From the NCBI RefSeq assembly GCF_003355155.1, contig NZ_CP031320.1, forward strand, positions 4,641,367-4,705,366: 64,000 nucleotides of DNA, in the 5' to 3' direction. The notes beneath the pieces were generated by a model. That model was given only the letters and a program-made list of their open reading frames with translations, was not told where the DNA came from and did not search any database. Source of the stretch: Streptomyces armeniacus. Its GTDB lineage: Bacteria > Actinomycetota > Actinomycetes > Streptomycetales > Streptomycetaceae. Position numbers and translations under genes: made by a program. Below, one piece after another: positions 5,581 to 50,442 of this stretch; position 1 is the stretch's first letter; each line of letters opens with the position of its first letter.

Positions 5581-5768
5581 ATGGCCACATTCATGGACGT
5601 CCACCACGGCATGAAGGGCATCACCGCAGATCAGCTCAGGGAGGCGCACGCCGCCGACCAGGCCATCGAGAAGGACGAGAACGTGCACTTCGAGAAGGCG
5701 TGGGCCGACCCGGAGTCCGGCACCGTCTACTGCCTCTCCGAGGCGCCGTCCGCCGACGCGGTGCGCCG
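5581..5768 (+). pseudogene. SCO4226-type nickel-binding protein, 3' truncated
   Basis: ATG 5581 follows GGAGGTG. The first 62 residues (MATFMDVHHGMKGITADQLR through FEKAWADPESGTVYCLSEAPSADAVRR) match the SCO4226 family of ~80-residue nickel-binding proteins, including the N-terminal Met-His region and the Cys. The family normally ends in a short segment around ERxGHPxDxVYEV. Here the similarity stops near 5768 and the sequence turns into the antisense of an unrelated gene. It marks a recombination breakpoint. Confidence 0.75.
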
Positions 5769-5769
5769 T

Positions 5770-5990
5770 GGCGACGAGCTCCTTCAGGTGGTCGGACAGC
5801 CCGACGACGCGCTTCTCGATGCGCTCGCGCCCGATGCGGTCCCACACCTCGCAGGCGCGGCGCACGCCCGCCATGATCGCCATGCTGCCGTTGCCGGCCT
5901 GCTGGAGCCGGGCCGCGATGTCGTAGCTCCCCTTCGGCCCGTCGGTGCGGGGCGGCACGCCGCCCTCGGCCGGGTACCCGCTGGCGACCA
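5770..5990 (-). pseudogene. Fragment of a class V aminotransferase-like gene
   Basis: Read on the minus strand, this gives GSYDIAARLQQAGNGSMAIM, then AGVRRACEVWDRIGRERIEK and GLSDHLKELVA. This pattern resembles the segment before the small domain of class V (PLP) aminotransferases. No start, PLP lysine or stop belongs to it, so it is an internal fragment. It directly abuts the truncated SCO4226-type gene. Together they look like a scar at the left border of the acquired region. Family assignment is by eye and only moderately sure. Confidence 0.5.
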
Positions 5991-6095
5991 CCGGCCAGAC
6001 CCCCGGCGCCGGCGCGGGGGGCGGGCAGCCGGGCGGTGGGGGGCCGGGGGCCCGGGTGCTGTTCCGGGGCCCCCGGGCAACGGTGAACGAGCGGG

Positions 6096-6980
6096 TCAGA
6101 AGGGGCGGTTGAGGAACACCGCGATGTCGTCGGCGAGTGCTTCCGCGTGGTCTGGCGCGGTTTCGCTGAGGTCGTCGAGGAACCAGGTGCAGCCGTTGCG
6201 GAGAATCTCGTGGCGGCGTGCCCCGTTGACGGTGGCGTGATCCAGTACGGCGGCGAGGGTCCATGCGGCCCGCTCGTACCTCGGACTGCCGTTGAGGGTG
6301 CCGCCCATGCTGAGGGTGTGGGCGGAGTCGGCGAGTTGAGCGGGGGTTGCGGTGCCGTGGAAGTGGTGGCAGAGGCACCGGACGACTTCGCGTGCTGCTT
6401 CCTGTACTTGCTCGGGGTCGGGCTTGCTCTGCCACACGCCGGGGATGCGGAGGAGGCGGGCGACTGCGCTGGTGGCGGCGTTGCCGCACGTGAAGCGCTC
6501 GGCGAGGCTTGGGGCGCGGCCGTCGGCGGTGGCGTGGTGGCCGTACGCGGCCATTGCGCGGGCGGCGGTGTATGTGGCCCATGTGCTTCTGGTGGCGGGG
6601 TCGTCGGCCAGGGCCGGTGCGGCGACGCGGTTGATCAGGTCCCATACCTGGCGGGTCAGGGCCTCGCAAGCCGTCTCGATGGCTGCCGGGCTGGACGCGC
6701 TGTAGCGTGCGGCGACCAGTTCTGTCCTGGCTCGGGCGCGGTGGGTGAGGAGTTCGGCGGCTCGGTTGCTGAGGTCGGCGGCGCTGGCCTCCTCGGCGTT
6801 CGGCTTGAGTTCGGTTGTGGGGTGCGTGCTGACGCGGGGTCCCCAGCGGACCACGGCTGCGGGAGCGCCGTGACGGCCGGTGAAGGTACGGATGACGAGG
6901 CCGGGCGGGAGGTCGGCCAGTGCGTCGTCGGTGATGTGCGCGACGGTTTGCCTCGCGCGTACACGGGGGGTGGGGGTCAT
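6096..6980 (-). CDS. Unknown 294-residue protein of the leading-region module
   Basis: I do not recognise a family. The protein is mostly helical and Ala-rich, with a small N-terminal domain (ALADLPPGLVIRTFTGRHGA) and Cys/His near the middle (VVRCLCHHFHGT). It ends DDIAVFLNRPF. Start ATG 6980 follows GAGAGGAC. It is the third of three minus-strand genes (DUF932, ArdC-like, this) whose leaders share the same 18-bp element. That grouping suggests an accessory or protective role during transfer. Convergent remnants lie downstream. Confidence 0.7.
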   Translation of the reverse strand: MTPTPRVRARQTVAHITDDALADLPPGLVIRTFTGRHGAPAAVVRWGPRVSTHPTTELKPNAEEASAADLSNRAAELLTHRARARTELVAARYSASSPAAIETACEALTRQVWDLINRVAAPALADDPATRSTWATYTAARAMAAYGHHATADGRAPSLAERFTCGNAATSAVARLLRIPGVWQSKPDPEQVQEAAREVVRCLCHHFHGTATPAQLADSAHTLSMGGTLNGSPRYERAAWTLAAVLDHATVNGARRHEILRNGCTWFLDDLSETAPDHAEALADDIAVFLNRPF

Positions 6981-7001
6981 CGTGTCCTCTCGTGGTGGGC
7001 G

Positions 7002-7020
7002 GGTCCGGGTGCCGTTCCCG
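7002..7020 (-). repeat. Leader repeat copy A
   Basis: GGTCCGGGTGCCGTTCCCG lies 22 bp upstream of the start of the 294-residue gene. It matches copies B and C except for one or two bases. The shared core is CGGGTGCCGTTCCC. Confidence 0.8.
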
Positions 7021-7082
7021 GGTCCGGCTGTTGGTGACGGGGTGAGGGCGGCGGGTCGGTCGCCGCTGTGCTGAGTCGGTGG

Positions 7083-7685
7083 TCAGTCGGCCAGTTCGAA
7101 CGCAAGGGCTCGGCCAGCGGAGATGACGTGGGCGGCTGAGGTGAACTCGGGCGGGCTGAAGTTGGGGTGGTCGCAGGCGGTCAGGGCCAGCAGGTGTGAG
7201 CTGTGGTCCTGGTCCGGGTGGTAGGCGAGGCGCCGCGCTCCGAGTGCCTTGCAGACGGCGGCGTCCGCTGCGTCGGGGTCGCGGGGCAGGGGCGCGCCGG
7301 GCTTGGCTGTCTGCTGGTGCGGGCTGGGTTCGGTTTGCGAGTACGCGTATACCTCGCCGGTGGCGAAGCTCCGTACAATCCCGTGGGCGGCGTCCAGGCG
7401 CCGGCCGCGTGGACTGCGCACGGCGGTGTAGATGCGGTGGCCGGTCTCGTCGGTACGGACCCGGCGGCCTCGGCACTGCCAGCCCTGTGCGCTGTCAACG
7501 ATCTCGCGTGGTGCCTGCGCGGCGATCAGTGCGATGTTGGTGACGGTGGCGCGCTCGGGGTGCATGGCGGCGGTCCAGAGGACGTCTTTCCAGACCTCGG
7601 GGTAGTCGAGGCTGAGCACGGTTACATCTGCGAGTTCGTTCACGAAGCGGCGGCCGTTGCGGCGCCGTTGAGCGGTTTTGGGCAT
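7083..7685 (-). CDS. ArdC-like (antirestriction/ssDNA-binding domain) protein
   Basis: This 200-residue protein has an N-terminal stretch ATVTNIALIAAQAPREIVDS then GWQCRGRRVRTDETGHRIYT. It resembles the ArdC N-terminal ssDNA-binding domain (YSxxNxxLIxxQ, then GRxVRKGExGxxI). The metalloprotease part of full ArdC is absent, and the C-terminal half is unlike anything I know. Start ATG 7685 follows AAGGAG. The upstream leader shares a repeat with the two neighbours. ArdC proteins protect incoming conjugative ssDNA. The role here is inferred from weak similarity and context. Confidence 0.5.
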   Translation of the reverse strand: MPKTAQRRRNGRRFVNELADVTVLSLDYPEVWKDVLWTAAMHPERATVTNIALIAAQAPREIVDSAQGWQCRGRRVRTDETGHRIYTAVRSPRGRRLDAAHGIVRSFATGEVYAYSQTEPSPHQQTAKPGAPLPRDPDAADAAVCKALGARRLAYHPDQDHSSHLLALTACDHPNFSPPEFTSAAHVISAGRALAFELAD

Positions 7686-7727
7686 GGCGGCTCCTTGTCT
7701 GGTGTGGGGTGGGTGATGGGGGGCGCC

Positions 7728-7746
7728 GGTTCGGGTGCCGTTCCCG
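7728..7746 (-). repeat. Leader repeat copy B
   Basis: GGTTCGGGTGCCGTTCCCG occurs 43 bp upstream of the ArdC-like start. Between it and the start lies the second shared block ACACCAGACAAGGAG, which includes the ribosome-binding site. Confidence 0.85.
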
Positions 7747-7798
7747 CGGACCGGCGGACAGAGGGCCGGGGGCGGGGTGCCCCCGGCCCGTACGGCGG

Positions 7799-8989
7799 CT
7801 ATGCGGCCGCGAGGCTCATTGCGGTAAGGGCCTGCGCCTCGAGGTCGTACGCGGCGTCCGCGTCCGTGAGGGTCTGGGCGGTGGCGGTGATGGCCTGCAT
7901 GACGCCGCCAGCCGTGGTCTGGCCGCCTCGGATGTACTGCTGAAGGATCGAATCCCGCAGTTCCTCGGAGAAGCGGAGCTTCTTGGAGACGACTTCGACC
8001 GTCTTCACGGCGTCGGTGACAGGGCGGGCCGCCTCCCGCTCAATCTCCGCGATCTTGGTTTCGACGTACGACCGGTCAAGGAACGTTGCGACGGCGTCGC
8101 GGGCCTGCGCGGTGATGAGTTGAAGGTTCTTCGTCTCGGTGTCACCGGACCACCGGATGATCCCCGCGTCCAGCTTCGCGCCGAGGTGGACGGCGCGGAG
8201 CGCGTCCTTACCGATGGTCATCCCGTTGTCGCAGACTTGGACCACGATGCGGGGGACGATGCTGAACGCCCCGGCGCCGACTTCGCTGTTGGCGAGCACG
8301 AACCCGGCGGACACGATCGGCAGCTCGCTGCCGCTCTCCCCGGTGAATGGGGAGCGGTAGTTCTTCAGCAGTGCGGGGGCGAGTGCCTTGACGTGCTCTG
8401 ACTGCACGCGGACGATCATTCGGCGGTCGGTGAGGTCACATCCGGTGATCTTCACGTCGTGGCCGGATTCCTTCACTCCGGCCAGCGCGGCCGTGAGTAC
8501 GTCGAAGTTGTCGATCACCTTGTAGCTGTCGGAGAGGAACGCGCGGAGCACGCCCTCATTGCCCCGGCCGTCGTTGAATCCGCGAAGCAGGAACCTGCGG
8601 TCGTCCTTGGAAAGCCACCCGTTGATGTTGGTGTCGTAGAGGTCGGGTCGCTCGGTGCGCATCCGGCGGAGGTAGTTCAGCGGGATGCCGAGCTTGGCGG
8701 CGATCCCCTCGTCCGCGACGGCGGTAGGCCGATAGGTGCCGTCGGCCGTCATCACGCCGCTGGGGGTGATGACCGGCGGAAGTCCCCGCACAGTGAGGGT
8801 GCCGCCATGGGCGCTGAGCACGGAGGCGGGGGCAACCATGTCGATCTTGGAATCGTGCTGGCGCTGGAGGATCCGCGCGAGGTCGCCGAGCTCCGCGTTG
8901 CGGGCGCTCATCGCGTCCGTGGTGTCGGTGGTGGCGCGGCTGGCGAACAGCTCCGCCTGGGTGGGTGTGATCTGGGCTGGTGCGGTCAC
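7799..8989 (-). CDS. DUF932-family protein
   Basis: I chose GTG 8989 (VTAPAQITPTQ) over an upstream ATG at 9076 because it has CAGGAG at proper spacing and follows the shared leader. The 396-residue product matches DUF932 proteins of phages and plasmids: RGFNDGRGNEGVLRAFLSDSYKVIDNFDVL, later VQVCDNGMTIGKDALRAVHLGA and a helical C-terminus. The family is widespread on mobile elements, often in conjugative leading regions, and is of uncertain function. It is first of three similarly led minus-strand genes. Confidence 0.85.
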   Translation of the reverse strand: MTAPAQITPTQAELFASRATTDTTDAMSARNAELGDLARILQRQHDSKIDMVAPASVLSAHGGTLTVRGLPPVITPSGVMTADGTYRPTAVADEGIAAKLGIPLNYLRRMRTERPDLYDTNINGWLSKDDRRFLLRGFNDGRGNEGVLRAFLSDSYKVIDNFDVLTAALAGVKESGHDVKITGCDLTDRRMIVRVQSEHVKALAPALLKNYRSPFTGESGSELPIVSAGFVLANSEVGAGAFSIVPRIVVQVCDNGMTIGKDALRAVHLGAKLDAGIIRWSGDTETKNLQLITAQARDAVATFLDRSYVETKIAEIEREAARPVTDAVKTVEVVSKKLRFSEELRDSILQQYIRGGQTTAGGVMQAITATAQTLTDADAAYDLEAQALTAMSLAAA

Positions 8990-9027
8990 GTCCTGTGCTC
9001 CTGTCTGGTGTGTGGTGATGGGGCGTC

Positions 9028-9045
9028 GGTTCGGGTGCCGTTCCC
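9028..9045 (-). repeat. Leader repeat copy C
   Basis: GGTTCGGGTGCCGTTCCC lies upstream of the DUF932 start. It is followed, towards the gene, by the second shared block ACACCAGACAGGAG. It is an almost exact copy of B. Confidence 0.85.
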
Positions 9046-9050
9046 TTCCC

Positions 9051-9074
9051 GACACAGAAAACTCTACAGCAATC
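9051..9074 (-). promoter_or_regulatory. Candidate promoter element for DUF932 (TGCTGTAGnGTTTT)
   Basis: On the minus strand the AT-rich string TGCTGTAGAGTTTT lies just upstream of leader repeat C. A second copy, TGCTGTAGCGTTTT, lies at 13411-13428 upstream of the MerR/Xis-like gene. TAGAGT/TAGCGT fits the actinobacterial -10 form TAGnnT. No convincing -35 is visible, so this may also be a binding site. Confidence 0.45.
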
Positions 9075-9166
9075 ATGGTGGTGCGACGCGTAAGACACGC
9101 AGGTCAGAGCGTGTTTGTGGTCAGTTGGGCGCGCCTTATCGCGGTGCCGAGCCCTCGGCACACCGG

Positions 9167-9342
9167 GGCGCCGGGGACGGGTGGTCCCTCCGGTCGGTCG
9201 GCGCTCACGGTGGGCCGCGCCCGGGTGGGGGTGCCGGGCTCGCCCGGAGGGCGACCGCGTAGCGGCCTGCCCGGCACCTCCGTCCGGGGGTGGCAGGGTG
9301 CGGAGTGTCGGCCGGGCGGAGGGACCACCCGTCCCCGGCGCC
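9167..9342. repeat. Perfect 26-bp inverted repeat with nested hairpins
   Basis: Bases 9167-9192 and 9317-9342 are exact reverse complements (26 bp). Inside lie a second perfect pair, 9230-9239/9269-9278, and two triloop hairpins (GCCC-gga-GGGC at 9242-9252, CCGC-gta-GCGG at 9255-9265). It occupies the non-coding stretch between the coupling-protein gene and the DUF932 leader. It could be a terminator, a cruciform origin/transfer site or an ssDNA promoter. It encodes no supported protein. Confidence 0.9.
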
Positions 9343-9475
9343 TTCACCGCAACCACCCGCCGGGCCGCACCGCGCAGCGGCGCCCTCTCCCCCTCTGGCT
9401 CGCGTCGTGCCCCCCGGAGGGCCGCCGGAGGCATCTCGAGGATCGGGCAGGCGCCGCCGCGGGCTGTTCCGGGCG

Positions 9476-11509
9476 TCAGTGCCACATGTCGGCGCCGTCG
9501 ACGGCCGGCGGTGCGGCGGGGTCCGGCGCTGCGGGTGGAGCGGGCGGCCGGGGAGGGATGGTGTGCGGCGGCGGCGGGGGCGGTGCCGCCGCGGCGGCGG
9601 GCACGGTCGTGGTGTGCGGGCACCCCGGCGCGTGCCGCCGGGGTGCCAGGGCGACGCGCACTGTCTGTGTGGTGTCCAGCGGATGCCCGACGGCGACCAC
9701 CGCGCGCCCGGGGGCGAGTCTGCGCAGCTTCTCCGGTTCCACGATCCGTTCGCGTACGGGCCGCAGCGACGACGAGCCGGTGGTACCGGTGGTGGTGCCG
9801 AGCGGTCCGGCGTCGTCCTGGACCTGCAGCACCTCTTCCCATCCGGGTCGGGTGCCCAGCAGCGCCGCGATGGGCTCGGCTGCGGACCGCTGCCGATGCA
9901 AGATCATGATGTTGCTGTTGGTCATCACCGCGGCCGCGAACTCCCGGCTTACGGCGTCCAGGTCCGCGAGGTCCTGGGTGGCCAGCAGGAGTCCGCCTCC
10001 CGCTCCCCGGATGCGCAGGAACAGGCTGGTCATGGTCGACCCTCCGAGTGCGGAGAATTCGTCGACCCCGGCGAAGAAGAAGCCGTGGACACCCCAGCCT
10101 TCCTCCAGCAGGCGGTCGCCGACCGCGCCCAGGTCCGTCAGCGCCAGGCTGCCGATCTGGCGGGCGGCCCGCGCATCGCGGGCGGCGGAGAGGCTGAACA
10201 GTACGATGTCCCCGGACTTGATGGACTCGTACAGGGCGATGCCGTCGGGCCGGTCGGCGAGCACGCGGCCGGCGTCACCCGCTGACATGTTGACGATGCG
10301 TGCGGCCAGGCCGGGCACGGAGCGCTGGAGTTCGCGCCCGTCGCGCTGCAGATAGTCCAGGTACTGGTGCACGACCCGGCCGGTCGTGCTCTTCAGCATC
10401 CGGGTACGGTCCGCGAGGGCCTTCACACTCATCAGCCGGGACAGATCGGGCAGGTCCCGCCGCCAGGAACGTGTGCCGTCCGGGAAGGACTCGGTCACCC
10501 CCTGGTCAACCAGGTCGTCCAGGGCGCGCATGGCGTGCCGGAGGAAGACCTCGGCGGCTTCCCGGTGATGGGGTTCGCTGAACCCTCCGCCGGCGACCTG
10601 GTCGAGGGTTTCGACGATCCGGGAACACACCTGCTCGACCGTCCCAAACCGGATCGGGTTGTAGGCGCAGCCGCGGCCGGTGACTGTCACCATCCGGAAC
10701 CGGCGCCCGGCCGTACGGGCCATCGTCTCGAGCGCGGCGGCGAAGTCCGGGTCGGCCTTCATATCGATGAACACGATCGGGATGGTGAGCGGCCTCGCGT
10801 GCGGGGTGGCGACCAGCTGGTGCAGCAGACGCTCGATCGTGCTGCTCTTGCCGTAGCCGGTAGCTCCCGCGACGAACACGTGCTGCCTCAGCGCCGAGCC
10901 GGGGATGTCGTACACGGCGCCGGTTTCGGTATCGACGCCGAGCCGCACTCGGAGCTCCGGCAGACCGCGTGCGGGCTCCCGGTCGTCCTGCTCCCCTACG
11001 GCCGCGACCGCGGCGTCGAGCTGGTCCTCGGGTAGCTGCTCCGGCTCTTCCCGCCACCGGGCACGGTGCCGCCACCGCCACATCAGCCACGCCCCGCCGA
11101 TCAGGACACCGGTTGCGACCGCGAGCGGAGCCTGGCTCGCCAGCCAGTCCGGGCACCGCCCGGCAGCATCCTGCGCCAGGCCCTCCGGCCCTTCTCTCAG
11201 CAAGCTCTCCCGGTCCATCGCAGGTACCTTGCGTGCGATCTCCCGGTATGGGGCGAGGTACGCCCCCCAGCCACCGCACGCGGCCACCAGAGCGGCGCCG
11301 ACCGCCCCGCCTCCGGCCATCCACCACCGGCCCCGCAGCCGCAGGCGGCGCCCGCCCGCGACCACGAGCACCGCGACCCCCAGGGAGATCGGCGCCAGGA
11401 CCACTGCCGGGACCGCGAGCATCCGAGCCAGCGATTCCCACGCCGAGACCGTCCGCCGCTCCTGCCCACCCCAACGCGCAGTCGGCCGAACCACCCCTCT
11501 ATCACTCAC
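9476..11509 (-). CDS. VirD4/TraD-type conjugative coupling ATPase
   Basis: This protein has two N-terminal transmembrane segments (LAVPAVVLAPISLGVAVLVV and a second near residue 120). They are followed by a motor domain with Walker A GATGYGKS (about residue 212) and Walker B FFFAGVDEF (about 475). The segment LGGSTMTSLFLRIRGAGGGLLLATQDLADLD is typical of the TraM-recognition/AAD part of type IV coupling proteins. The proline-rich tail is probably flexible. I chose GTG 11509 as start, which is uncertain because the Shine-Dalgarno is weak. It should dock substrate DNA to the T4SS at 16-22 kb. Confidence 0.85.
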   Translation of the reverse strand: MSDRGVVRPTARWGGQERRTVSAWESLARMLAVPAVVLAPISLGVAVLVVAGGRRLRLRGRWWMAGGGAVGAALVAACGGWGAYLAPYREIARKVPAMDRESLLREGPEGLAQDAAGRCPDWLASQAPLAVATGVLIGGAWLMWRWRHRARWREEPEQLPEDQLDAAVAAVGEQDDREPARGLPELRVRLGVDTETGAVYDIPGSALRQHVFVAGATGYGKSSTIERLLHQLVATPHARPLTIPIVFIDMKADPDFAAALETMARTAGRRFRMVTVTGRGCAYNPIRFGTVEQVCSRIVETLDQVAGGGFSEPHHREAAEVFLRHAMRALDDLVDQGVTESFPDGTRSWRRDLPDLSRLMSVKALADRTRMLKSTTGRVVHQYLDYLQRDGRELQRSVPGLAARIVNMSAGDAGRVLADRPDGIALYESIKSGDIVLFSLSAARDARAARQIGSLALTDLGAVGDRLLEEGWGVHGFFFAGVDEFSALGGSTMTSLFLRIRGAGGGLLLATQDLADLDAVSREFAAAVMTNSNIMILHRQRSAAEPIAALLGTRPGWEEVLQVQDDAGPLGTTTGTTGSSSLRPVRERIVEPEKLRRLAPGRAVVAVGHPLDTTQTVRVALAPRRHAPGCPHTTTVPAAAAAPPPPPPHTIPPRPPAPPAAPDPAAPPAVDGADMWH

Positions 11510-11587
11510 TGCACCCACCCGTGCACGGAGAGAACACGACTCCGTACCGTACCGCGCCCCTCCCACCGCCAGGGCGCGGACCCCCAA

Positions 11588-11750
11588 CGGGCGCGCAGCG
11601 CCCGCCTCTCGTGAGCCGCGGAGCGGCTTCACCCGCCGGGCGCGCGGATGCCGCGGAGCGGCAGCGCGGCCGTGAGCCGCGAAGCGGCGAACTCCCCTGC
11701 GGAGCTGGGGCCCGCAGCGGAGCTGCGGAGCACGGGGCGCGGAGCGCCCC
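11588..11750. repeat. Cluster of GNA-triloop mini-hairpins (candidate transfer/replication origin)
   Basis: Short perfect stems closed by three-base GNA loops follow one another: 11588-11604 (loop gca), 11615-11627 (gga), 11650-11662 (gga), 11676-11688 (gaa), 11712-11728 (gga) and 11734-11750 (gga). The core is GCCGC-gga-GCGGC. GNA triloops are known to make unusually stable DNA mini-hairpins. The cluster lies between the divergent coupling-ATPase and replication-relaxation-type genes. An origin role is inference. Confidence 0.8.
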
Positions 11751-12015: not shown

Positions 12016-12765
12016 ATGCCGACGACCACGGCCCGGCGGAATCATGTGATGACCAGCCGGGACCTGGAGATCCTGCAGTGGGCGGCGCGCTGGCGGGCCG
12101 TCACCTGCCCTCAGGTGGCTAGGGAGTTCGACCGGCGAACGGAGCGGACGCGGCGGCGGGAAGTCTACGAGCGCAGGCTCCGCGCCCTGCACCAGCTGGA
12201 GCTGCTCCAGCAAGCGCGGCCCCTGGGAGACCAGCCTCGGATCCACTGGCTGACCCGGGCCGGGATGGCGGCCGCCGGCGTCGAGGGCACCCCGGGGTCC
12301 CCGAGCGTCGGCGAGCTCGTGCACGACCTGGAGGTGGTCGAGCTCGCGCATCATCTGGCGGTGACCCAGCCGGACCACCAGCTCGTCACGGAGCAGGAGA
12401 TCCGGCGATCCGAGCCGAATCCATCCTCCGGGCCTGGTGCCCGGCTGCGGTCCGACATCGAGATCGGTGCCGGGCGAGGGACCGGCGGGCGCTCTTTTCC
12501 GGATCTGGCGTCGGTCGTCACGAGTGAGGACGGCGCCGAGCAGGTGTGGGTGCACGAGCTGGAGCGCGCCCGGAAGGGTCGAGCACGGCTGCTGTCGATC
12601 ATGCTGTCGTACGTGTACGCCGAGCACGTGCACGGTGTCGTGTACTGGGCCTGGCCCGGCCTGGCCGATCCTCTGGCCGCGGTGGCGGAGGAAGCAAACC
12701 GGACCGCGGCGGCGGCAGGATTGCGACCCTGCGTCGTCGTCCGGCCGTGGCAGCCCCGGCTCTGA
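12016..12765 (+). CDS. Replication-relaxation-type (Replic_Relax-like) DNA-binding protein
   Basis: ATG 12016 follows GGGAGAGAGG. The 249-residue product has an N-terminal winged helix (MTSRDLEILQWAARWRAVTCPQVAREF, then ERRLRALHQLELLQQARP). The C-terminal half resembles the nuclease-like fold of replication-relaxation proteins: LRSDIEIG, PDLASVVT, WVHELERARKGRARLLSIM, SYVYAEHVHGVVYW. Such proteins are carried by actinobacterial plasmids and conjugative elements and are thought to act in initiation or relaxation at an origin. Divergence from the coupling ATPase across the mini-hairpin cluster fits that role. No relaxase tyrosine motif is visible. Confidence 0.6.
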   Translation: MPTTTARRNHVMTSRDLEILQWAARWRAVTCPQVAREFDRRTERTRRREVYERRLRALHQLELLQQARPLGDQPRIHWLTRAGMAAAGVEGTPGSPSVGELVHDLEVVELAHHLAVTQPDHQLVTEQEIRRSEPNPSSGPGARLRSDIEIGAGRGTGGRSFPDLASVVTSEDGAEQVWVHELERARKGRARLLSIMLSYVYAEHVHGVVYWAWPGLADPLAAVAEEANRTAAAAGLRPCVVVRPWQPRL

Positions 12766-17801: not shown

Positions 17802-19165
17802 TGTGCGGCATCACCGACCCTGGCGGGTGCGTCGCGGACGCGGCCCGCTCCGGCCTGGAGGCCATGGCTGAGGCGATCGCCGACGCCGCCGCGTGGATCA
17901 TCACCGAGAGCTTCACCTGGTGGGTGGATACCAGCGCCGACCAGCTGAACACCGGCGTTGTGAACGCCGTCCGCGAGGTCACGATGCCGCTCACAGTGAG
18001 CGTGGCCGCCGCCGGGATGATCGTTTTCGGAATCCGGATGGTGCTCTCCGGCTCGCCCGACCCGCTGCTGAGCATGGGCGAAGGCGTCGCCAAGCTGACG
18101 TTCTGGACCGTCGCGGGCACCCTGGTCCTCAACTCGGCGATGAAAGCCGCGGCCGCCTTCTCCGGATGGGTCCTGGACTCCGCCAGAACCCGCAAACTCG
18201 GCGAGCAGCTCGTCGAGGCGTTCGACCTCCCCGTGGAGGACAACATCGGCGTGATCCTGCTGCTGTCCCTGATCGGCTTCCTGGCGGGCGTGGTGCAGTG
18301 GCTGATCTCCCTCTTCCGGGAAGGCGCGGTGGTGATCCTCGCCGGGTGCCTGCCGCTGGCGGCGTCCGGCTCACTGGGGCTGGGCCGCCCCTGGCTCAGC
18401 AAGATCACGGGATGGTGCCTGGCGCTGATCTTCTGGCAACCGGCGGCCTCTCTCGTCTACTTCGCCGCCTTCAGCATGCTTGAGCACGCACGCGGCGGCC
18501 AGGAGACGCTGGTTGGCATCACCATGCTCGTCATCGCCAACTTCGCCCTGCCGACGTTGATGAAGCTGTTCTCCTGGGTGGTCAGCACGAGCAGTGGCGG
18601 GGGCGGCAGCGGGTCCTCGAAGGCCGCAGGAGTCGCGATGGCCTATCAGATCCGGGGCGCCGCCGCCGTCCGCGGGAGCGGCCGGATGAGCCCTGATCAG
18701 CACGCCCGGCTGATCGGCTCCGCCCTCCCCCATCAAGGCACTCCGGGCGGCGGCCAGACCGGGCCCGGCTCGGTCGCTTCCGGTGCCGTGCCCGGGTCCC
18801 GTACCCCCGCAGCGGACCCCGCGGGCCCCGGCGGTCCGGCCTGGACGCCCGGCACCATCTCCGGGACTCCAGGCGCCCCCGGAACATCCGGTGGTGGTGC
18901 GGCCGGCGGCAGCGGGGCGACGGGTGCCGGCGGCGCGGCTGCCTCAGGGGCCGGAGCGGCTGCGCCCGCAGCGGGCGAGGCGTCAGCAGGCGCCGCCGGA
19001 GCGGTCGGCGCGAAGGCCACAGCCGCCGCTGGCCCCATCGGCGCCGCCGCCGCTGCCGCCGTCGTGGGCGCCGCAGGCGCGAAGGCCGTCGGGCGTGCCA
19101 TGACCGAGGGCGCTGACGCCCAGCCCGCCTCGCCCCGCGAGCCCGGAAAGGAAGGCAGCAAGTGA
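17801..19165 (+). CDS. VirB6/TrbL-like polytopic conjugation channel protein
   Basis: The 454-residue protein begins MCGITDPGGCVADAARSGLE and has about six transmembrane helices between residues 60 and 270 (MPLTVSVAAAGMIVFGIRMV, LTFWTVAGTLVLNSAM, IGVILLLSLIGFLAGVVQWL, AVVILAGCLPLAASG, CLALIFWQPAASLVYFAAF, LVGITMLVIANFALPTLMKL). A long Gly/Ala/Pro-rich cytoplasmic tail follows. This is the actinobacterial TrbL/VirB6 layout. Genes on both sides overlap it by 1-4 bp, so it is part of one tightly coupled operon. Confidence 0.8.
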   Translation: MCGITDPGGCVADAARSGLEAMAEAIADAAAWIITESFTWWVDTSADQLNTGVVNAVREVTMPLTVSVAAAGMIVFGIRMVLSGSPDPLLSMGEGVAKLTFWTVAGTLVLNSAMKAAAAFSGWVLDSARTRKLGEQLVEAFDLPVEDNIGVILLLSLIGFLAGVVQWLISLFREGAVVILAGCLPLAASGSLGLGRPWLSKITGWCLALIFWQPAASLVYFAAFSMLEHARGGQETLVGITMLVIANFALPTLMKLFSWVVSTSSGGGGSGSSKAAGVAMAYQIRGAAAVRGSGRMSPDQHARLIGSALPHQGTPGGGQTGPGSVASGAVPGSRTPAADPAGPGGPAWTPGTISGTPGAPGTSGGGAAGGSGATGAGGAAASGAGAAAPAAGEASAGAAGAVGAKATAAAGPIGAAAAAAVVGAAGAKAVGRAMTEGADAQPASPREPGKEGSK

Positions 19166-20655
19166 CCTCAGTGCGTCTGTACGGAGGCTGGCGCCTCACT
19201 CGGGGAATCGGGCTGGGCAACCTGACGCTGGGCCAGTCCCTGATCCTGCTGGGCCTGTTGATCACCGTGATGCTGACCGCCGCGGTGGACATCCGGCTGC
19301 TGCTGTACGTCGGCCCCGCAGCCGCGGTGGCGGCGGCGCTGACCGCGCTGCGGTGGCGGGGAGAGCCGCTGCTGGAGACGCTGCTGACCATCGCCCGCTG
19401 GCGTCACGGCGTACGTGCGGAGCAGGACGTCTTCACCTCCGGCGTGGTGACGCTGCACAAGCGGGGCCTCGACTTGCCCGGGCTGCTCGCTCCGGTGGCG
19501 ATCCTCTCCTGCGAGGACGGCGACGGCGGGCACTACGGCATGGCCTGGCACCGCCGAAGCGGCCACCTGACCGCCACCTTGCGGGTCGCCGCGGTCTCCA
19601 CCGCCCTGGCCGATCAGGACTCCGTGGACACCTGGGTCAGTCAGTGGGGTGCCTGGCTGGCGCGCCTAGGGCACTCCCCCATGGTGCGGTGGGTGGCCGT
19701 CACCGTGGACACCGCGCCGGATCCCGGCAGTTCCCTCGAGGACTACGTGGCCGCCCGCCTCGACCCGGCCGCGCCGGCGAACGCCACCGCACTCATGCAC
19801 GAGTTGGTTGCGCTCTCCCCTGCCGCGAGCGCGGCGGTCGAGACCCGGGTCAGCATCACCTTCGACCCGGCGCGCAGTCCCGAGCCGTGTGCCACCTTCG
19901 CGGAGGCCGTCGCGGAGGCCGGCCGGAACCTGGCTGGTCTCCAGCATGCTCTGGGCGCGTGCGGTGTAACGGTTCTGGGCCGCGCCAGCGCCGCGAGGCT
20001 GGCCGGGATCACGCGGGCGGCGTTCGACCCCGTCTCCCGGCCGGAGGTGGCCCGCGCGCTGGCCCACGACCCTCGCACCGGTGCCGAGGCCGACCCCGAC
20101 GCCCTGCTCGGCCACGGCGTCGCCGGCCCTGTGGCTGCCCGCGAGCACCGCAGCCACTACGAGCACGACTCCGGCACATCGGTGTCCTGGGTCTGGGCGA
20201 GCGCGCCCCGGCAGCACGTCACTTCGGAGGTCCTGGTGCCGCTGCTCGCCCCCGCCCGGCATCCCAAGCGGGTCACCCTGGCCTACGAACCCCATGCCGC
20301 CGAAGCCGCCGCCGACCACTTGCAGGGGGAGGTCAACGCCGCTGCTTTCCGAGCCGCGCTGCGGCAGCGGCAGCAGCGCGCCGAGACCGCCACCGACCTC
20401 GCCGACCGCGCTCGCGCCGAGCAGGCCGCGCAGGAGGAGGCGCAGGGTGCCGGGCTGGGCCTGTACTCGATGGTGATCACCACGACCGTCACCGACCCGG
20501 AGGCGCTGCCCCGAGCCGTGGCCGACGTCGAGCAGCGCGCCGGAACCTCCAAGATCAAGCTCCGCCGGGCGCGCTGGTCCCAGGCCGCCGCGTTCGCTGC
20601 CACGCTCCCGCTTGGCATCTACCTGCCGGACGCCGTCCGGCGCCGCACCCGCTGA
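19162..20655 (+). CDS. SCO6880-type membrane protein (VirB3/VirB4 N-terminal-like)
   Basis: GTG 19162 overlaps the previous stop (GTGA). Of the 497 residues, about 30-70 form two membrane helices (LILLGLLITVMLTAAV, LLLYVGPAAAVAAALTAL) as in VirB3/PrgI. The rest is soluble and resembles the non-ATPase N-terminal domain of VirB4 (AWHRRSGHLTATLRVAAVST, DTWVSQWGAWLARLGHSP). There is no Walker motif. The ATPase part is the next gene. I recognise it as the SCO6880 family. The split VirB4 arrangement is typical of these actinobacterial systems. Confidence 0.8.
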   Translation: MTSVRLYGGWRLTRGIGLGNLTLGQSLILLGLLITVMLTAAVDIRLLLYVGPAAAVAAALTALRWRGEPLLETLLTIARWRHGVRAEQDVFTSGVVTLHKRGLDLPGLLAPVAILSCEDGDGGHYGMAWHRRSGHLTATLRVAAVSTALADQDSVDTWVSQWGAWLARLGHSPMVRWVAVTVDTAPDPGSSLEDYVAARLDPAAPANATALMHELVALSPAASAAVETRVSITFDPARSPEPCATFAEAVAEAGRNLAGLQHALGACGVTVLGRASAARLAGITRAAFDPVSRPEVARALAHDPRTGAEADPDALLGHGVAGPVAAREHRSHYEHDSGTSVSWVWASAPRQHVTSEVLVPLLAPARHPKRVTLAYEPHAAEAAADHLQGEVNAAAFRAALRQRQQRAETATDLADRARAEQAAQEEAQGAGLGLYSMVITTTVTDPEALPRAVADVEQRAGTSKIKLRRARWSQAAAFAATLPLGIYLPDAVRRRTR

Positions 20656-20683
20656 CCCGTCCTCCTTCCGCGCCAGGAGCACC

Positions 20684-22147
20684 ATGCCGGATCCGACCAT
20701 GCCGCGTCTGGGGCCCACCCCGCCGTCCTGGGGCTGGCCCGGGCAGGGACTCGGGCGGGCCGCGCACGCGGCCTGCCCGCCGCTCTATCAGGCAACGACC
20801 GTTCAGGGCTGCGGCCTCTACCCGTTCACTGCCGGGTCCGGTGCCCCCGCTGTCGGCGTGCCCATCGGCCGGCACATGATCTGGGGCGAGGTCGTCGCCC
20901 TTGACCCGGTGGACTGGGTCCGGGCGAACCTGGCCACCAACCCCGGGGTGTTCGTACTCGGCGAGCCCGGCGTCGGCAAGTCCGCGTTCAGCAAGCGCAT
21001 GGCCGTCGGGCTGGCCGCATTCGGCACCGGCGTGGTCGTCCTGGGCGACCTCAAGGGCGAGTACGGCGGGCTCGTCACCCGGCTGGGTGGCCAAGTCGTA
21101 CGGATCGGCTGGGGTCTGGACCGCCTCAACCCCCTCGACTCCGGCGCCCTGGGCCAGGCCGTGACCGCCCTGGACGGCACCAGCCCTGAAAGAGCACGCG
21201 CGCTGCGCGCGGAGATCCGGTCCCGTCGCCTGGACCTGCTGCTGGCGCTGTGCCTCATCGCCCGCGGCTCCCGCGGCGCGGCCGTCACCGACGCCGAAGA
21301 ACTCGCCCTCGGCGGCGCGTTGGACCTCCTGGCCCGGGACGCGGCCCAAGAGCCGGTCATTCCGCAGGTCATGCACGTCATCGAGACCGGCGACCCCGAG
21401 ATGTGCCGCGCCGTCCTGGCCCGAAGCCCGCAGGAGTACCGCGAGCTGACCGACGGCATCCTGCGCACCCTCGCCCGGATCTGCCAGGGCCTGCTCCAGG
21501 GCCTGTTCGACGGCCCGACGACCACCCCGGCCGACCTCAGCGCGCCGGCCGTCTCGCTCGACATCCACGCCCTGGACAACGCCGCCGACGACATCGTCGC
21601 CGCCGCCTTGCTGTGCACCTGGGCGTACGGGTTCGGTGCGATCGACGCAGCGCGAGCCGTCGGCGACACCCGTCACTACCTCACCGTCCAGGACGAGATG
21701 TGGCGGTCCTTGCGGGCCGCGCCCGGCCTCGTCGAACGCACCGACCGGCTCACCCGTCTCAACCGGCAGAAGGGGATCGGGAGCATCATCACCACGCACT
21801 CGCTGTCGGATCTGGAGGCACTTCCGACCGCGGAGGATCAGGCCAAGGCCCGGGGCCTGGTCGAGCGGTCCGCGATCACCGTGATGGGCGCCCTGCCGGA
21901 CCTGGAACTCGGGCGGGTCCACCAGGTCCGCTCCCTCACCACCCGAGAGCGGGAGATGGTCGCCTCCTGGTCCGCGCCGGAATCCTGGGAGACCGACCGG
22001 CCCCACCCTGGCCGCGGCAAGTACCTCATCAAGAACGCCGGCCGCCTCGGCATCCCCGTCGAGATGCACCTCACCCCCGGCGAAATCGACCTCTACAACA
22101 CCGACACCGCCATCCGCAGGCAGCCGGTGGCCCGGCTGCCTGTCTAG
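20684..22147 (+). CDS. VirB4-type conjugation ATPase
   Basis: ATG 20684 follows CCAGGAGC. The 487-residue protein has Walker A GEPGVGKS (residues 93-100), the acidic strand VVLGDLKGEYGGL and Walker B YLTVQDEMW (about 332-340). The motif GIGSIITTHSLSDL follows, as in VirB4/TraC ATPases. It lacks membrane helices and the VirB4 N-domain, supplied by the SCO6880-type protein encoded 28 bp upstream. It should power assembly or substrate transfer at the inner face of the channel. Its TAG overlaps, tail to tail, the stop of the next minus-strand gene. Confidence 0.88.
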   Translation: MPDPTMPRLGPTPPSWGWPGQGLGRAAHAACPPLYQATTVQGCGLYPFTAGSGAPAVGVPIGRHMIWGEVVALDPVDWVRANLATNPGVFVLGEPGVGKSAFSKRMAVGLAAFGTGVVVLGDLKGEYGGLVTRLGGQVVRIGWGLDRLNPLDSGALGQAVTALDGTSPERARALRAEIRSRRLDLLLALCLIARGSRGAAVTDAEELALGGALDLLARDAAQEPVIPQVMHVIETGDPEMCRAVLARSPQEYRELTDGILRTLARICQGLLQGLFDGPTTTPADLSAPAVSLDIHALDNAADDIVAAALLCTWAYGFGAIDAARAVGDTRHYLTVQDEMWRSLRAAPGLVERTDRLTRLNRQKGIGSIITTHSLSDLEALPTAEDQAKARGLVERSAITVMGALPDLELGRVHQVRSLTTREREMVASWSAPESWETDRPHPGRGKYLIKNAGRLGIPVEMHLTPGEIDLYNTDTAIRRQPVARLPV

Positions 22148-40520: not shown

Positions 40521-41957
40521 TTACTGCTTGAGCGTGGTCAGGGTGTTGCGGACGCTGCCGAGCTTGACTTCGCGGCCGCCGTCGGCGTTGACGAGATCCA
40601 GAACCTCGCGGGCGTCGAGCGGGTCGTCGTGTGCGTCGAGGACGGCTTGGACGCGGTCGCGCAGCGTGCGCGAGCGGGGCTGGGGTTGCGCCGGGACGGG
40701 GGAGGCGGGCTTCGTTCCGCCGGAGCGAGCGCCGCTCCGGCCTCCGCCGCTTGCCTCTTCCTCCTCGTCCTCTTCGGGGAAGACCGCGCGGTACGCCTCG
40801 GGCCCGTCCAGGCGCTGGCAGTAGGCGTCGCCGATGAGGTCCCAGGCGGCCTCTTCGATCTCGGGCGGGGCGCCGGGCCCGTACAGGTCCAGGATCATCG
40901 GATCGAGGCCGTCGGTGGGCATCTCCGAGCCGATGTTCCAGAACCGCATCTTGCTGGAGGGGTAGCGGCCGTTGACGTTGTAGGCGGTGCCTTGGGTGCC
41001 GGGCAGGTCGTCGTCCTCGTACGCCTCGTCGAACTGGGAGATGAGGTCGACTTCGCCTGCGTACTTCGGGATCGGGGCGAGGACCATCCCGGCGGGCAGC
41101 AGACCATCGGTCACCAGCTGCTTCATCATCGAGCTGGTCCAGCGCAGCAGGACGACTTCGCCTTCCTTGAGCATCGCGCGCAGGGTGTCGCTGCCGCCCA
41201 TCTCCTCCAGGTGGCCGGCCTGCGCGAACAGGCCGATGCCGACGCCGAGGGACCGGCCGGTGCGGCCGATGTCCTTGATGTAGAAGGTCGCTTCGGCCCG
41301 GTACGGGGCGCCCTTCTCCAGCAGGCGGTTGGCCTCGTCCACGATCTGGTAGATCAGCGGGTCGGGCCGGTCCTTGAGGAACTTCGAGCGTCCCATCCGG
41401 GAGTAGCGCTCCTGGCGGTCCATCATCGTCAGCCACGTGGTGCGCAGCTGCGCCATGGTGCCTTCCTGCGTGGTGACCCGCCAGGCGACGTTGCCGTCGG
41501 AGCCGTGCCCGGTCTGCCCGTACGCCTCGGGAGCGGACTGGCCGGCCTTGAGGTCGGCGTACAGGACGGCAATGCCGGAGCGCTTCATCGACGCGAGGAT
41601 GCTCTGCCCGGCGGTTGATTTGCCGGCACCGGTGGTACCGAACAGCAGCAGCCGCTGTGCGGAGCCGGTCTGCGGGTCGTACAGACGCAGCAGCGCGGGC
41701 CGGCCGTTGTGGTGGCGGCCGATCCAGATCCGCCCGCGGTCGTCCATGACCAGCATGTGCGGGTCGGAGAGGATGACCCGGGCGAGGGGGTCGTGCGGGT
41801 AGATGGTGACCAGCGCCTTGTCTCCCATGACGTTCGTCTCGATCGCGAGCCGGTTGACGTCCTTGATGCGCAGCGCGGCGGCGAGCCGCATCGGGTGGTG
41901 GGTGATGATGTCGCCGGGCTCGGCTGCCTCCACGGTCAGCTCGTAGATCTTGCTCAT
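40521..41957 (-). CDS. FtsK/TraB-like DNA-translocase ATPase
   Basis: ATG 41957 follows AAGGAG. Of 478 residues, about 106-113 are Walker A GTTGAGKS and about 201-207 Walker B YQIVDEANRLL. The motifs YADLKAGQS and GRTGRSLGVGIGLFAQ are typical of FtsK/HerA motors. An acidic, disordered region (FPEEDEEEEASGGG) is followed by a C-terminal winged helix (LRDRVQAVLDAHDDPLDAREVLDLVN). That parallels the gamma domain with which TraB/FtsK read short DNA repeats. It lacks membrane helices, which are in the adjacent gene. It may be a split TraB-type transfer protein. Confidence 0.8.
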   Translation of the reverse strand: MSKIYELTVEAAEPGDIITHHPMRLAAALRIKDVNRLAIETNVMGDKALVTIYPHDPLARVILSDPHMLVMDDRGRIWIGRHHNGRPALLRLYDPQTGSAQRLLLFGTTGAGKSTAGQSILASMKRSGIAVLYADLKAGQSAPEAYGQTGHGSDGNVAWRVTTQEGTMAQLRTTWLTMMDRQERYSRMGRSKFLKDRPDPLIYQIVDEANRLLEKGAPYRAEATFYIKDIGRTGRSLGVGIGLFAQAGHLEEMGGSDTLRAMLKEGEVVLLRWTSSMMKQLVTDGLLPAGMVLAPIPKYAGEVDLISQFDEAYEDDDLPGTQGTAYNVNGRYPSSKMRFWNIGSEMPTDGLDPMILDLYGPGAPPEIEEAAWDLIGDAYCQRLDGPEAYRAVFPEEDEEEEASGGGRSGARSGGTKPASPVPAQPQPRSRTLRDRVQAVLDAHDDPLDAREVLDLVNADGGREVKLGSVRNTLTTLKQ

Positions 41958-42805
41958 GCGCGAAGCTCCTTGGCCCCTTCCTCTTCGGGGTCGGGGATGT
42001 CGACGGTGCGGATCTGGGTGATGACGGTGCCGGGCATGCCCTTGGGCGCGATGTGCTTCTCCCAAGCGGTGTTCAGGTCCATGGCCTGCTCGGGGGCCTG
42101 GCCGATGACCAGTCGGCGTACCCCGGCGCCCTGCCGCGGTACGGGCGTGATGGCGATGTCGTCCTCGGGCCAGTTGATGGCCGCGGACAGCTCCAGCAGG
42201 TCGATCTTCGGGACCGGCTTGCCGGGGAGGGTGGAGCGGATGACGGCGGTCATCGACTCCGGGCCCGTGCGGACGATCTGTTCCAGCACGGTGTGCGGAG
42301 CGGCGCCGTCCTCGATGGCGACGCGCTGCGCCCAGTACGCCGCCATCGGGTGCTGTGGTCCGCCCTGGACTGTGTCCTGGGCGAGGATCTCCTTGCTCTC
42401 CTCGATCGCGGTTGGGGTCAGCGACTTCTCACGGCCGACGAGTACCCGGGCGCTCCGGGCGGGGCGGGCCTTCCAGACGCCGACGGTCCACGCGGCGTCG
42501 GCGAGCAGCTGCCACCACCAGTCGACGCCGGGGACGAAGTGCTGTGCGGTGAGCAGCCCGGCCAGCGACCACGACGGGGCGAGGTAGAGAGCCGTCGCCG
42601 TATTGCCGACCGGGGTGCGCGGCAGGGTGGCCGACCACAGGGTGGCCCACCCGGCGCACACGATCGTGCCGGTTATCGAGGTGGCGTAGGCGTCGGGGGC
42701 GAAGGTACCGGCGGCGAGCGCGCCGGTGCCGGCAACGGTGGCGGCGCGGCCGACCGCGTTGCGGGCCAGAGCGATGGGGCCGCGCAGGGGACCGAGTCGA
42801 GTCAT
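41954..42805 (-). CDS. Membrane partner of the FtsK/TraB-like ATPase
   Basis: The stop overlaps the ATPase start (ATGA). The 283-residue protein has several hydrophobic segments in the first 110 residues (AGTGALAAGTFAPDAYATSITGTIVCAGWATLW; ALYLAPSWSLAGLLTAQHF). A soluble C-terminal domain follows (AIEESKEILAQDTVQGGPQHPMAAYWAQRVAIEDGAAPHTVLEQIV; ITPVPRQGAGVRRLVIGQAPEQAMD). Together with the next gene it reconstitutes the N-terminal membrane part plus motor of a TraB/FtsK-type translocase. This is inferred from order and topology. Confidence 0.65.
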   Translation of the reverse strand: MTRLGPLRGPIALARNAVGRAATVAGTGALAAGTFAPDAYATSITGTIVCAGWATLWSATLPRTPVGNTATALYLAPSWSLAGLLTAQHFVPGVDWWWQLLADAAWTVGVWKARPARSARVLVGREKSLTPTAIEESKEILAQDTVQGGPQHPMAAYWAQRVAIEDGAAPHTVLEQIVRTGPESMTAVIRSTLPGKPVPKIDLLELSAAINWPEDDIAITPVPRQGAGVRRLVIGQAPEQAMDLNTAWEKHIAPKGMPGTVITQIRTVDIPDPEEEGAKELRA

Positions 42806-42834
42806 CGGTGCTGCTCTCCTTCGAGGGGATGAGG

Positions 42835-42870
42835 AAGGGCGGCGGCCCCCGGCCGGGGGTCGCCGCCCTT
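42835..42870. terminator. Hairpin between genes 42894 and 41954
   Basis: AAGGGCGGCG (42835-42844) and CGCCGCCCTT (42861-42870) pair perfectly, with further inner pairing CCCCCGG/CCGGGGG. It limits read-through from the cluster upstream. Confidence 0.75.
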
Positions 42871-42893
42871 CGTGTGGTGCGGTGGGCGTGGGG

Positions 42894-43328
42894 TCAGCGG
42901 TTGGAGTAGAACTCCCGGTCGGCCATGTCGATGCCGTCCGGCATGTTGTTCGCGGCCTCCGCGACCGAGCCGTAGTCGGCGATGTGGGCGTCGGCGGTCT
43001 CGTGGAAGAGGGTGGCCATCTCCTCGCACTCGGTCGCCATCCCCTCCGCTTCCTCGAGGCAGGTGCGCATGACCGTGGCCGCCTCGCGGTGCTCGTTGAC
43101 GGTGGACTGGTCGACGTTGAGAGCGGCGGCCTGGTCGGCGAGCTTGTCGACCGACTGAGCGCAGTCCTCCACGTAGTTGAAAGTGGAGCGGACCTGCTCG
43201 GACAGGCCGCGCATGGTGACGCTGGCCGCGGTCAGCTGCATGACGACGATGGTGAAGCGGACAGCGCCGACGATCACGGAGCCGGTCGTTTCGAGGGCGC
43301 CGCCGATACGGGGAGCAATGTCGGACAC
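42894..43328 (-). CDS. Unknown 144-residue protein with one membrane helix and helical tail
   Basis: GTG 43328 follows AGGAGACC. After MSDIAPRIGGALETTG a hydrophobic stretch (SVIVGAVRFTIVVMQLTAASVTM) is followed by a long acidic helix-rich domain (FNYVEDCAQSVDKLADQAAALNV; EAATVMRTCLEEAEGMATECEEMATLFHETADAH). It may form an antiparallel bundle like a methyl-accepting or WXG-type protein. It starts just after the repeat-rich protein gene ends, so the two are probably one operon. Confidence 0.65.
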   Translation of the reverse strand: MSDIAPRIGGALETTGSVIVGAVRFTIVVMQLTAASVTMRGLSEQVRSTFNYVEDCAQSVDKLADQAAALNVDQSTVNEHREAATVMRTCLEEAEGMATECEEMATLFHETADAHIADYGSVAEAANNMPDGIDMADREFYSNR

Positions 43329-43336
43329 GGGGTCTC

Positions 43337-45475: not shown

Positions 45476-45515
45476 CGGCCGTCTCCTTCAATAGTCACTC
45501 AGAGTCACATTCAGG

Positions 45516-45555
45516 GGGTTCCCACGCGCGCGTGTACGCGCGCGCGTAGGAACCC
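45516..45555. promoter_or_regulatory. 40-bp near-perfect palindrome with CG-alternating core
   Basis: The two 20-base halves (45516-45535, 45536-45555) match at 18 positions. Outer arms GGGTTCC/GGAACCC surround alternating ACGCGCGCGT tracts able to adopt Z-DNA or a cruciform. It lies 40 bp upstream of the repeat-rich gene, in its probable promoter region, and just downstream of the 66-residue gene. It could be an operator or terminator. TCAC repeats flank it at 45495-45509. Confidence 0.75.
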
Positions 45556-45594
45556 TAGATTCACGGGTGCGGCGGTGATGATGAGCGCGTAGCG

Positions 45595-45795: not shown

Positions 45796-45798
45796 TCG

Positions 45799-46737: not shown

Positions 46738-46765
46738 GGTGCTCTCCTTTCATGGAACGTGCAGG

Positions 46766-48511: not shown

Positions 48512-48553
48512 GAGGGCCTCCGGGAAGGGGGCGTGAGGTGGGGTCGAAACGAA

Positions 48554-48599: not shown

Positions 48600-48642
48600 G
48601 GTGAAGTCGAAGGGGCGTGTTGTGGCGGCGAAGGCGGGGCCG

Positions 48643-50412: not shown

Positions 50413-50442
50413 GCGGGCCTCCCAGAAGGTCCGGTGATCGAG

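Follow-up and report, generated by a model that had tools for sequence, protein, structure and literature searches.

A covarying, strand-specific hairpin upstream of early-type genes in a Streptomyces armeniacus element and its relatives

Introduction

What is the role of a long inverted repeat that stands directly upstream of a run of genes with a common leader sequence, in a stretch of DNA that also encodes parts of a type IV secretion system (T4SS)? This question is raised by a 64,000-nt stretch of Streptomyces armeniacus DNA (NZ_CP031320.1, 4,641,367 to 4,705,366), called here the window, which belongs to a single-contig genome of 8.08 Mb; coordinates below are those of the window. Early expression from entering single-stranded DNA (ssDNA) is well described for enterobacterial plasmids, and the initial annotation of the window proposed a leading region of this kind, in which the leaders before a DUF932 gene, an ArdC-like gene and a third gene would act as ssDNA promoters. 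We retain the leading-region reading for its layout, its ssDNA structure and its repeated leaders, and abandon the idea of the leader as an ssDNA promoter. The inverted repeat belongs to a family of conserved hairpins, which may serve to prime second-strand synthesis.

A conserved family of covarying hairpins

The inverted repeat and its companion segment are both assigned to the plus strand:
9167..9342, plus strand: Y-shaped ssDNA hairpin (this strand, the template strand of the DUF932 genes, is taken as the active one)
9381..9434, plus strand: companion segment 3' of the hairpin, with the GGA-triloop mini-hairpins CCCGGAGGG and GCCGGAGGC

The 26-bp inverted repeat with nested triloops that had been noticed upstream of the genes is part of this 176-nt repeat. 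Its arms (9167-9206 and 9303-9342) are 40 nt long and 88% complementary, the outer 26 bp being perfect, and its tip (9223-9285) carries two triloop hairpins, C-GGA-G and C-GTA-G; GNA triloops are known for their stability in DNA. Folded as ssDNA, the segment 9167-9342 reached -93 kcal/mol (z -10.2), and none of 200 shuffles was as good. Segments resembling the companion are also present in pTSC1, pSGL1, two S. virginiae plasmids and the genome G135.

A blastn search with positions 9050-9475 matched 10 plasmid records, small circular plasmids included, and a search with one of the relatives as query also matched 10 records; the matches of this relative in 105 of 392 Streptomyces genomes were mostly short, weak and probably due to chance. 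The sequences were aligned as a Y class (A2, 8 sequences, including the window), a single-hairpin class (A3, 10 sequences) and a tip (A5, 17 sequences), the last two being free of the window. Changes on both sides of a pair with pairing kept were found at 35 of 61 pairs in A2, 19 of 49 in A3 and 15 of 25 in A5. For pairing, two-sided changes and covariation score, none of 500 shuffles reached the real value in any of the three alignments, and the number of further pair types was reached by 0, 0 and 1 of 500 shuffles in A2, A3 and A5, respectively. Structures slid along the alignments paired at 35-50%, against 89-96% for the real ones.

Two covariance models, R1 and R2, each recovered the held-out window on the plus strand with 57.5 bits (E 4e-9 for R1 and 5e-10 for R2), these E-values being rough because both models were calibrated briefly. 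R2 found the hairpin in 20 of 295 Streptomyces genomes and in 4 of 396 genomes of a phylum sample, each count including the genome of the window. As the tips of A5 had been picked by a pattern that fixes part of the loop, loop statistics were taken from the R2 genome matches, which comprised 31 loci, 22 of them parsed and 2 of these duplicates. The second tip loop was C-GNA-G in 19 of the 20 distinct parsed matches (N being A in 4, C in 10, T in 4 and G in 1), a set that includes the window and relatives from the training set. On the hairpin strand many pairs are G.T, equivalent to A.C on the opposite strand. Taken together, these results show that the hairpin is a conserved, covarying and strand-specific family. 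It is one module shared by small plasmids, large plasmids and chromosomal elements.

Genes that follow the hairpin in larger elements

We analyzed 45 hairpins in larger elements, namely plasmids, chromosomal stretches and contigs of at least 27 kb, the limits of hairpins found by the tip model only being placed 50 nt beyond either end of the tip. The next gene points away from the hairpin and has the hairpin strand as its template in 38 of the 45 (37 of 44 distinct ones, as L087 and one L125 hairpin are the same plasmid), a proportion given without a background rate that combines 34 of 41 by an open reading frame (ORF) heuristic with 4 of 4 by annotation in L145. Among 18 first genes drawn from the 34 co-directional ones, Pfam gave a family for 9, including three C5 methyltransferases, ParB_N, DUF3560, DUF2786, DUF3846 and AAA_33. 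R1 and R2 are searchable models that point at candidate anti-restriction and establishment genes, half of those scanned being without a known family.

Several elements carry the hairpin more than once. In the 85.7-kb plasmid of S. phaeochromogenes NBC_01183, at least 8 hairpins (4 in L050 and 4 in L145) share a strand, and every one has a co-directional gene after it, with genes for methyltransferase, ArdC, DUF3560 and ParB_N proteins among them; an N6-type methyltransferase and ArdC follow hairpins in L145, and the ParB_N protein is annotated as such with 19.9 bits against a cut-off of 26.3. Four hairpins, two of which belong to the R2 training set, lie on one strand within 21 kb of Amycolatopsis thailandensis (L040), one of them directly before ssb, a gene recognised by tblastn. 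In NBC_01244 the hairpin precedes DUF932 and then an extended series of genes in the same direction, ArdA and SSB among them, and in G135 (L092) the order is coupling protein, hairpin, leader, DUF3846 and an ArdcN protein. Both the hairpin and the leader are thus found again ahead of ssb, ArdC, methyltransferase and ParB_N genes of related elements, as the initial annotation would lead one to expect. The gene upstream of the hairpin in the window is of the same kind as in G135:
9476..11632, minus strand: TraG/TrwB-type coupling protein, its gene lying next to the hairpin on the upstream side, an order shared with G135 (L092)

As a separate observation, hairpins occur in pairs in four Streptomyces genomes (L121, L122, L131 and L137), at a spacing of 6.5-8 kb and close to genes of the ParB-like and DUF3560-like types.

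Promoter and leader lie beyond the hairpin

On the minus strand, the following features lie past the hairpin base:
9100..9107, minus strand: CTGACCTG motif, 59 nt past the hairpin base
9061..9066, minus strand: -10-like TAGAGT of the DUF932 promoter, just before leader copy 1
9024..9054, minus strand: leader RNA hairpin 1, in the predicted 5' untranslated region (UTR) of the DUF932 gene
8998..9011, minus strand: ACACCAGACAGGAG, ribosome-binding segment of gene 1
7799..8989, minus strand: gene 1, DUF932-type, 396 aa, phrog_1362 (1.5e-91)
7733..7745, minus strand: leader core 2, GGGAACGGCACCC, without a -10 upstream
7691..7705, minus strand: ACACCAGACAAGGAG, ribosome-binding segment of gene 2
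7083..7685, minus strand: ORF2, 200 aa, likened to the ArdC N-terminal domain through its homology with L092 8054-8785 and with the ArdC protein of NBC_01183
7007..7019, minus strand: leader core 3, GGGAACGGCACCC, without a -10 upstream
6096..6980, minus strand: ORF3, 294 aa, no confident family
6052..6068, minus strand: degenerate fourth leader-like hairpin, after ORF3

The three consecutive genes do share an upstream element: the 13-nt core GGGAACGGCACCC is identical in the three minus-strand copies (9045-9033, 7745-7733 and 7019-7007) and reads GGG-AACGGCA-CCC on the coding strand. Two of the genes also share ACACCAGACA(A)GGAG, at 9011-8998 and 7705-7691, as had been described. The longer form GGTTCGGGTGCCGTTCCC is exact at 9028-9045 and 7728-7745 and has one mismatch at 7002-7019; with up to 3 mismatches it occurs at 4 places in the window against 0.14 expected, a number that none of 100 shuffles reached. 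Across the 8.08-Mb genome, its IUPAC form was found without mismatch at 3 places, all in the window, and at 8 more with 2 mismatches, the control with the reversed pattern giving 8 places in all. A plain count of 13-mer repeats argues against a reading free of chance, the 4 of the window equalling only the maximum of 5 shuffles.

Leader 1 can fold as UGUCGG GAA GGG AACGGCA CCC GAA CCGACG, leader stems being judged by eye. The leader is not confined to this genome. Its absence from related elements, which would have spoken against a transfer-related leader, was not observed, because the exact core was found in two other genomes, 6 times in L090 and once in L092. Leader cores of three exact types were scored, and at least one was present in 14 of 38 loci. 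Their orientation is one-sided in L009 (9:0), in L121 and L090 (6:0 each) and in L050, L122, L131 and L137 (5:0 each). As in the window, L090 has leader cores both with and without a -10. At the -10 place, relatives show TAGATT, TAAGAT, TAAAAT, TTTAAT and similar hexamers, and the -10s, where present, lie outside the hairpin and before the leader. The hairpin and the leader are two different elements, and the leader as an ssDNA promoter is unsupported, copies 2 and 3 being without a -10 and the existing -10 lying outside the hairpin. A long GC-rich inverted repeat at 7760-7789, after the stop codon of DUF932 and ahead of leader 2, is possibly a processing or attenuation hairpin.

Within 250 nt past the hairpin base, CTGACCTG was present in 21 of the 45 larger-element cases, in 20 of them at +55 to +65, and in 0 of 8 small plasmids. 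A TGTCG-type leader follows at least 25 of the 45 larger-element hairpins and 0 of the 8 in small plasmids. This leader count combines two scans; several first regex matches (L121, L122, L131, L137 and L134) turned out to be a -35 segment, and corrected positions were used for L121, L131, L137 and one of two in L122, with L134 and the second of L122 left out. Beside these observations on CTGACCTG, CTCTGACCTGCG was seen in pIJ101 and in pTSC1, and in L050 CRP-like palindromes, for example TGTGATCCAGATCACC, precede the -10 within the 250 nt after each hairpin.

The format of the leader recalls the start-associated sequences (SAS) of cluster K mycobacteriophages (PMC3203893). These are 13-nt repeats of the form GGG-N7-CCC that precede many genes and almost always point the same way; an inverted repeat lies upstream of roughly half of them, and they typically sit 3-7 bp from the start codon, at the ribosome-binding position. 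Format and orientation are alike. In contrast, the SAS consensus is GGGATAGGAGCCC instead of GGGAACGGCACCC, and the leader core lies 26-47 nt upstream of the start codon. The leader does not match the SAS in consensus or in spacing.

Hairpins of small plasmids and single-strand origins

The hairpin is also found in 8 small plasmids, where a co-directional next gene was scored in 2 of 8 by the ORF heuristic, with which plasmid annotation agrees for L049 and places the gene on the opposite strand for L048. In rolling-circle replication (RCR) plasmids, the plus strand is the sense strand of rep. A rep gene was recognised in 4 of the 8 (L046, L049, L051 and L132), by tblastn at 26-34% identity in L046 and L132, at 40% in L049 and by annotation in L051. 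In all four the rep-sense strand carries the hairpin, at a distance of about 0.9-1.4 kb beyond rep, the rep end of L046 being inferred from two partial matches. This resembles the single-strand origin (sso) or sti of Streptomyces RCR plasmids of the pIJ101 type, for which PMC4170104 gives the order rep-spdA-sso: both are non-coding ssDNA hairpins on the rep-sense strand past rep. Unlike these origins, the hairpin of larger elements precedes early-type promoters and occurs in several copies, and our models miss pIJ101.

The pIJ101 sso was accordingly rejected as a homologue. The best of many weak blastn similarities, at pIJ101 2592-2678 (42.5 bits), is to the companion segment and not to the hairpin; none of 100 shuffles reached this score, but the shuffle maximum was 41.1. 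By eye, no Y hairpin was seen in folds of pIJ101 7850-8350. That an sso may be carried on an integrative and conjugative element (ICE) is known from ICEBs1, whose sso1 is similar to an RCR plasmid sso (PMC4595007, abstract). That abstract contains no coupling to a promoter or leader such as the one seen here, the two systems being compared by description and not by sequence.

Priming of second-strand synthesis and rival readings

The reading that we favour, with belief and doubt in about equal measure, is that the 176-nt repeat is an sso-like single-strand initiation element, which primes second-strand synthesis and makes the early promoters double-stranded first. It builds on what the alignments and gene maps show, namely that the structure covaries and is tied to one strand, and that it stands ahead of early-type genes and, in small plasmids, past rep. 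The element would presumably be transferred as ssDNA. When single-stranded, in transfer or in rolling-circle replication, its plus strand would fold into the Y hairpin with GNA triloops, and host factors would prime second-strand synthesis there. Synthesis of the new strand would run first through the DNA 5' of the hairpin, which holds the -10, the leader and both the DUF932 and the ArdC-like gene; the neighbouring ordinary promoter, becoming double-stranded first, would then allow early expression. The GGG-N7-CCC leader would act separately, as an RNA hairpin of the 5' UTR or intergenic gap that probably puts the messages under one control, be it of stability, elongation or translation.

We put forward more tentatively, and as somewhat less probable, that actinomycete conjugative elements possess an early cassette unlike Frpo, the hairpin promoter of F-like plasmids. 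It would consist of a Y-shaped GNA-triloop sso, a conventional promoter about 80-180 nt beyond and a leader hairpin; expression of anti-restriction, methyltransferase and ssb genes would be timed by priming, and the cassette would have been copied before gene after gene. The hairpins before early-type genes in other Streptomyces plasmids suggest a variant of the known switch-on of genes at entry. R1 and R2 make the host conversion of transferred ssDNA testable.

Several observations weigh against the priming reading. A rep gene was not recognised in 4 of the 8 small plasmids (L045, L047, L048 and L085), two of which carry a relaxase, and pIJ101 (L052), whose sso has been mapped, was matched by neither R1 nor R2. 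Outside the small plasmids, 7 hairpins have no co-directional next ORF, the heuristic being imperfect in that one of the 7 (L040 14151), when its sequence is read directly, does have a correctly oriented open frame. The co-directionality itself lacks a background rate, several elements have long gene runs on the same strand, and many copies come from few related elements and are hence not independent. The transferred strand is not fixed, because there is no strong relaxase and no mapped origin of transfer (oriT). Finally, the hairpin stood directly upstream of DUF932 in only 2 of the 34 loci scanned with R2 (the window and L009), although for many of the other loci no more than about 1.5 kb upstream of the gene was covered. 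The hairpin-DUF932 link is thus not general, and DUF932, which had been presented as typical of such regions, is ruled out as a constant partner of the hairpin.

A Frpo-type ssDNA promoter, at which RNA polymerase would bind the hairpin and transcribe the leading genes off the transferred strand, with the transcript doubling as a primer, is unlikely, and we rank it below a priming site. The hairpin strand is the template strand and lies before genes of leading-region type, and the gene set and multiplicity resemble those of F-like leading regions, for which PMC11541004 reports Frpo, methyltransferases and SSB. The legend of its Extended Data Fig. 5a also presents a leading-region anti-defence island of Streptomyces sp. 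DJ; the main text has no occurrence of DUF932, ArdC or "Actino", and Streptomyces occurs once, in that legend. The claim that a Streptomyces equivalent would be new is accordingly narrowed, such an island being already on record for the leading region of a conjugative element from Streptomyces. In the open-access literature, neither the hairpin, nor the hairpin-promoter-leader cassette, nor DUF932 together with a leading region was found under a name. The present family resembles the Frpo/ssi sites and the Streptomyces sp. DJ island (PMC11541004) in that ssDNA hairpins, in several copies, precede ssb and genes of anti-defence; unlike in Frpo, there is no -10-like hexamer inside the hairpin, and the -10 follows it, before the leader. 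A TAnnnT hexamer was missing from the sense strand of 52 of 53 hairpins, a set with one duplicate pair in which about half of the limits were placed 50 nt beyond either end of the tip and the -35 was not part of the score. This lack is unsurprising by itself, because the hairpins are about 80% G+C. Small plasmids mostly have no gene following the hairpin, and priming in pSN22 is reported to be independent of RNA polymerase (Suzuki 2004, cited in PMC4170104). Priming is favoured over direct transcription of ssDNA because of the geometry, the place past rep and the stems without promoter hexamers.

Rather less probable is a double-stranded regulatory or partition site, where a plasmid protein would bind the duplex or a cruciform and regulate or tether promoters. 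Several copies stand before promoters, the near-fixed distance of CTGACCTG suggests bound proteins, and ParA and ParB-like genes are present in the window, but such a site would not be expected to have long stems whose sequence changes while pairing is kept, nor GNA triloops and G.T pairs on one strand. A structured non-coding RNA made from the plus strand, antisense to the direction of the leader, is improbable: the RNA would have the sequence of the same strand, and covariation and G.U pairs would fit it equally well, but a search with 4227 Rfam models gave no relevant match, the two window matches up to E 1 being far below cut-off and outside the hairpin. An oriT, or a terminator of the coupling-protein gene, is very improbable despite the position of the hairpin just after that gene in the window and L092, as an oriT is expected to be a single site beside relaxase genes and the hairpin is multi-copy (8 copies in 24 kb of one 85.7-kb plasmid), and as the window hairpin is followed by no T run and a coupling-protein match accompanies 2 of the 47 loci listed (the window and L092).

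Gene content of the window and DUF932 genes elsewhere

Two further features bear on the link to a T4SS:
12016..12765, plus strand: candidate relaxase, Replic_Relax-like, its start being the first ATG of the conserved part
19162..22147, plus strand: SCO6880-family and VirB4-like T4SS genes

The proposed link holds as regards the VirB4-like and coupling-protein genes and is weaker as regards the relaxase. The Replic_Relax match at 12016-12765, the sole relaxase candidate, scores 19.6 bits, below the curated cut-off; its frame, which is opposite to the ORF first predicted there, is 67% identical over 240 aa to L092. No TrwC or Relaxase Pfam family was found in the genome.

The names given to the first two genes stand in part. 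Gene 1 scores 13.6 bits against Pfam DUF932 (PF06067), under the cut-off of 23, but its match to phrog_1362 is strong and its relatives in Streptomyces plasmids are mostly annotated DUF932. ORF2 had no direct match to ArdcN (PF08401) in profile searches, but it aligns with two proteins that pass ArdcN, one in L092 (43.5% over 108 aa) and the annotated ArdC protein (32%).

Among other DUF932 loci, L040 has none of its 4 hairpins directly before DUF932, and in L022 a match of 19.6 bits lies behind the gene. Compared with 5 shuffles, 13-mer repeats near DUF932 were in excess in NBC_01244 (7 against at most 4), L042 (6 against 4), L036 (5 against 4) and L038 (4 against 3); at other loci, the window included (4 against 4), they were within the shuffle range. 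By eye, DUF932 copies of Pseudonocardia, Kribbella, Amycolatopsis and Streptosporangium show no layout of the kind seen in Streptomyces and Kitasatospora, where in most cases a hairpin, showing paired changes, begins right after an AT-rich -10. In 8 Streptomyces plasmid records (H2-H9), DUF932 lies about 1.5-2.3 kb from the record end, and the 3 that were checked are linear. The loci L010-L012, L024 and L030 illustrate this position, about 2 kb from the ends of linear Streptomyces plasmids or near both ends of the linear chromosome of G159; G300 has an inverted second copy at 8.91 Mb of contig 1.

The left boundary of the element is marked by a patchwork without a clear edge: the flank 5643-6007 is about 98% identical to contig bases 1-137 and 396-532, and shows 96% identity to a stretch at 7.12 Mb. 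Further to the right, FtsK-like (PHROG), DUF2637 and WhiB genes at 40521-50460 suggest a second module, resembling an actinomycete ICE, beside the T4SS module, and a weak R2 match (28 bits) lies within this region at 49522-49608.

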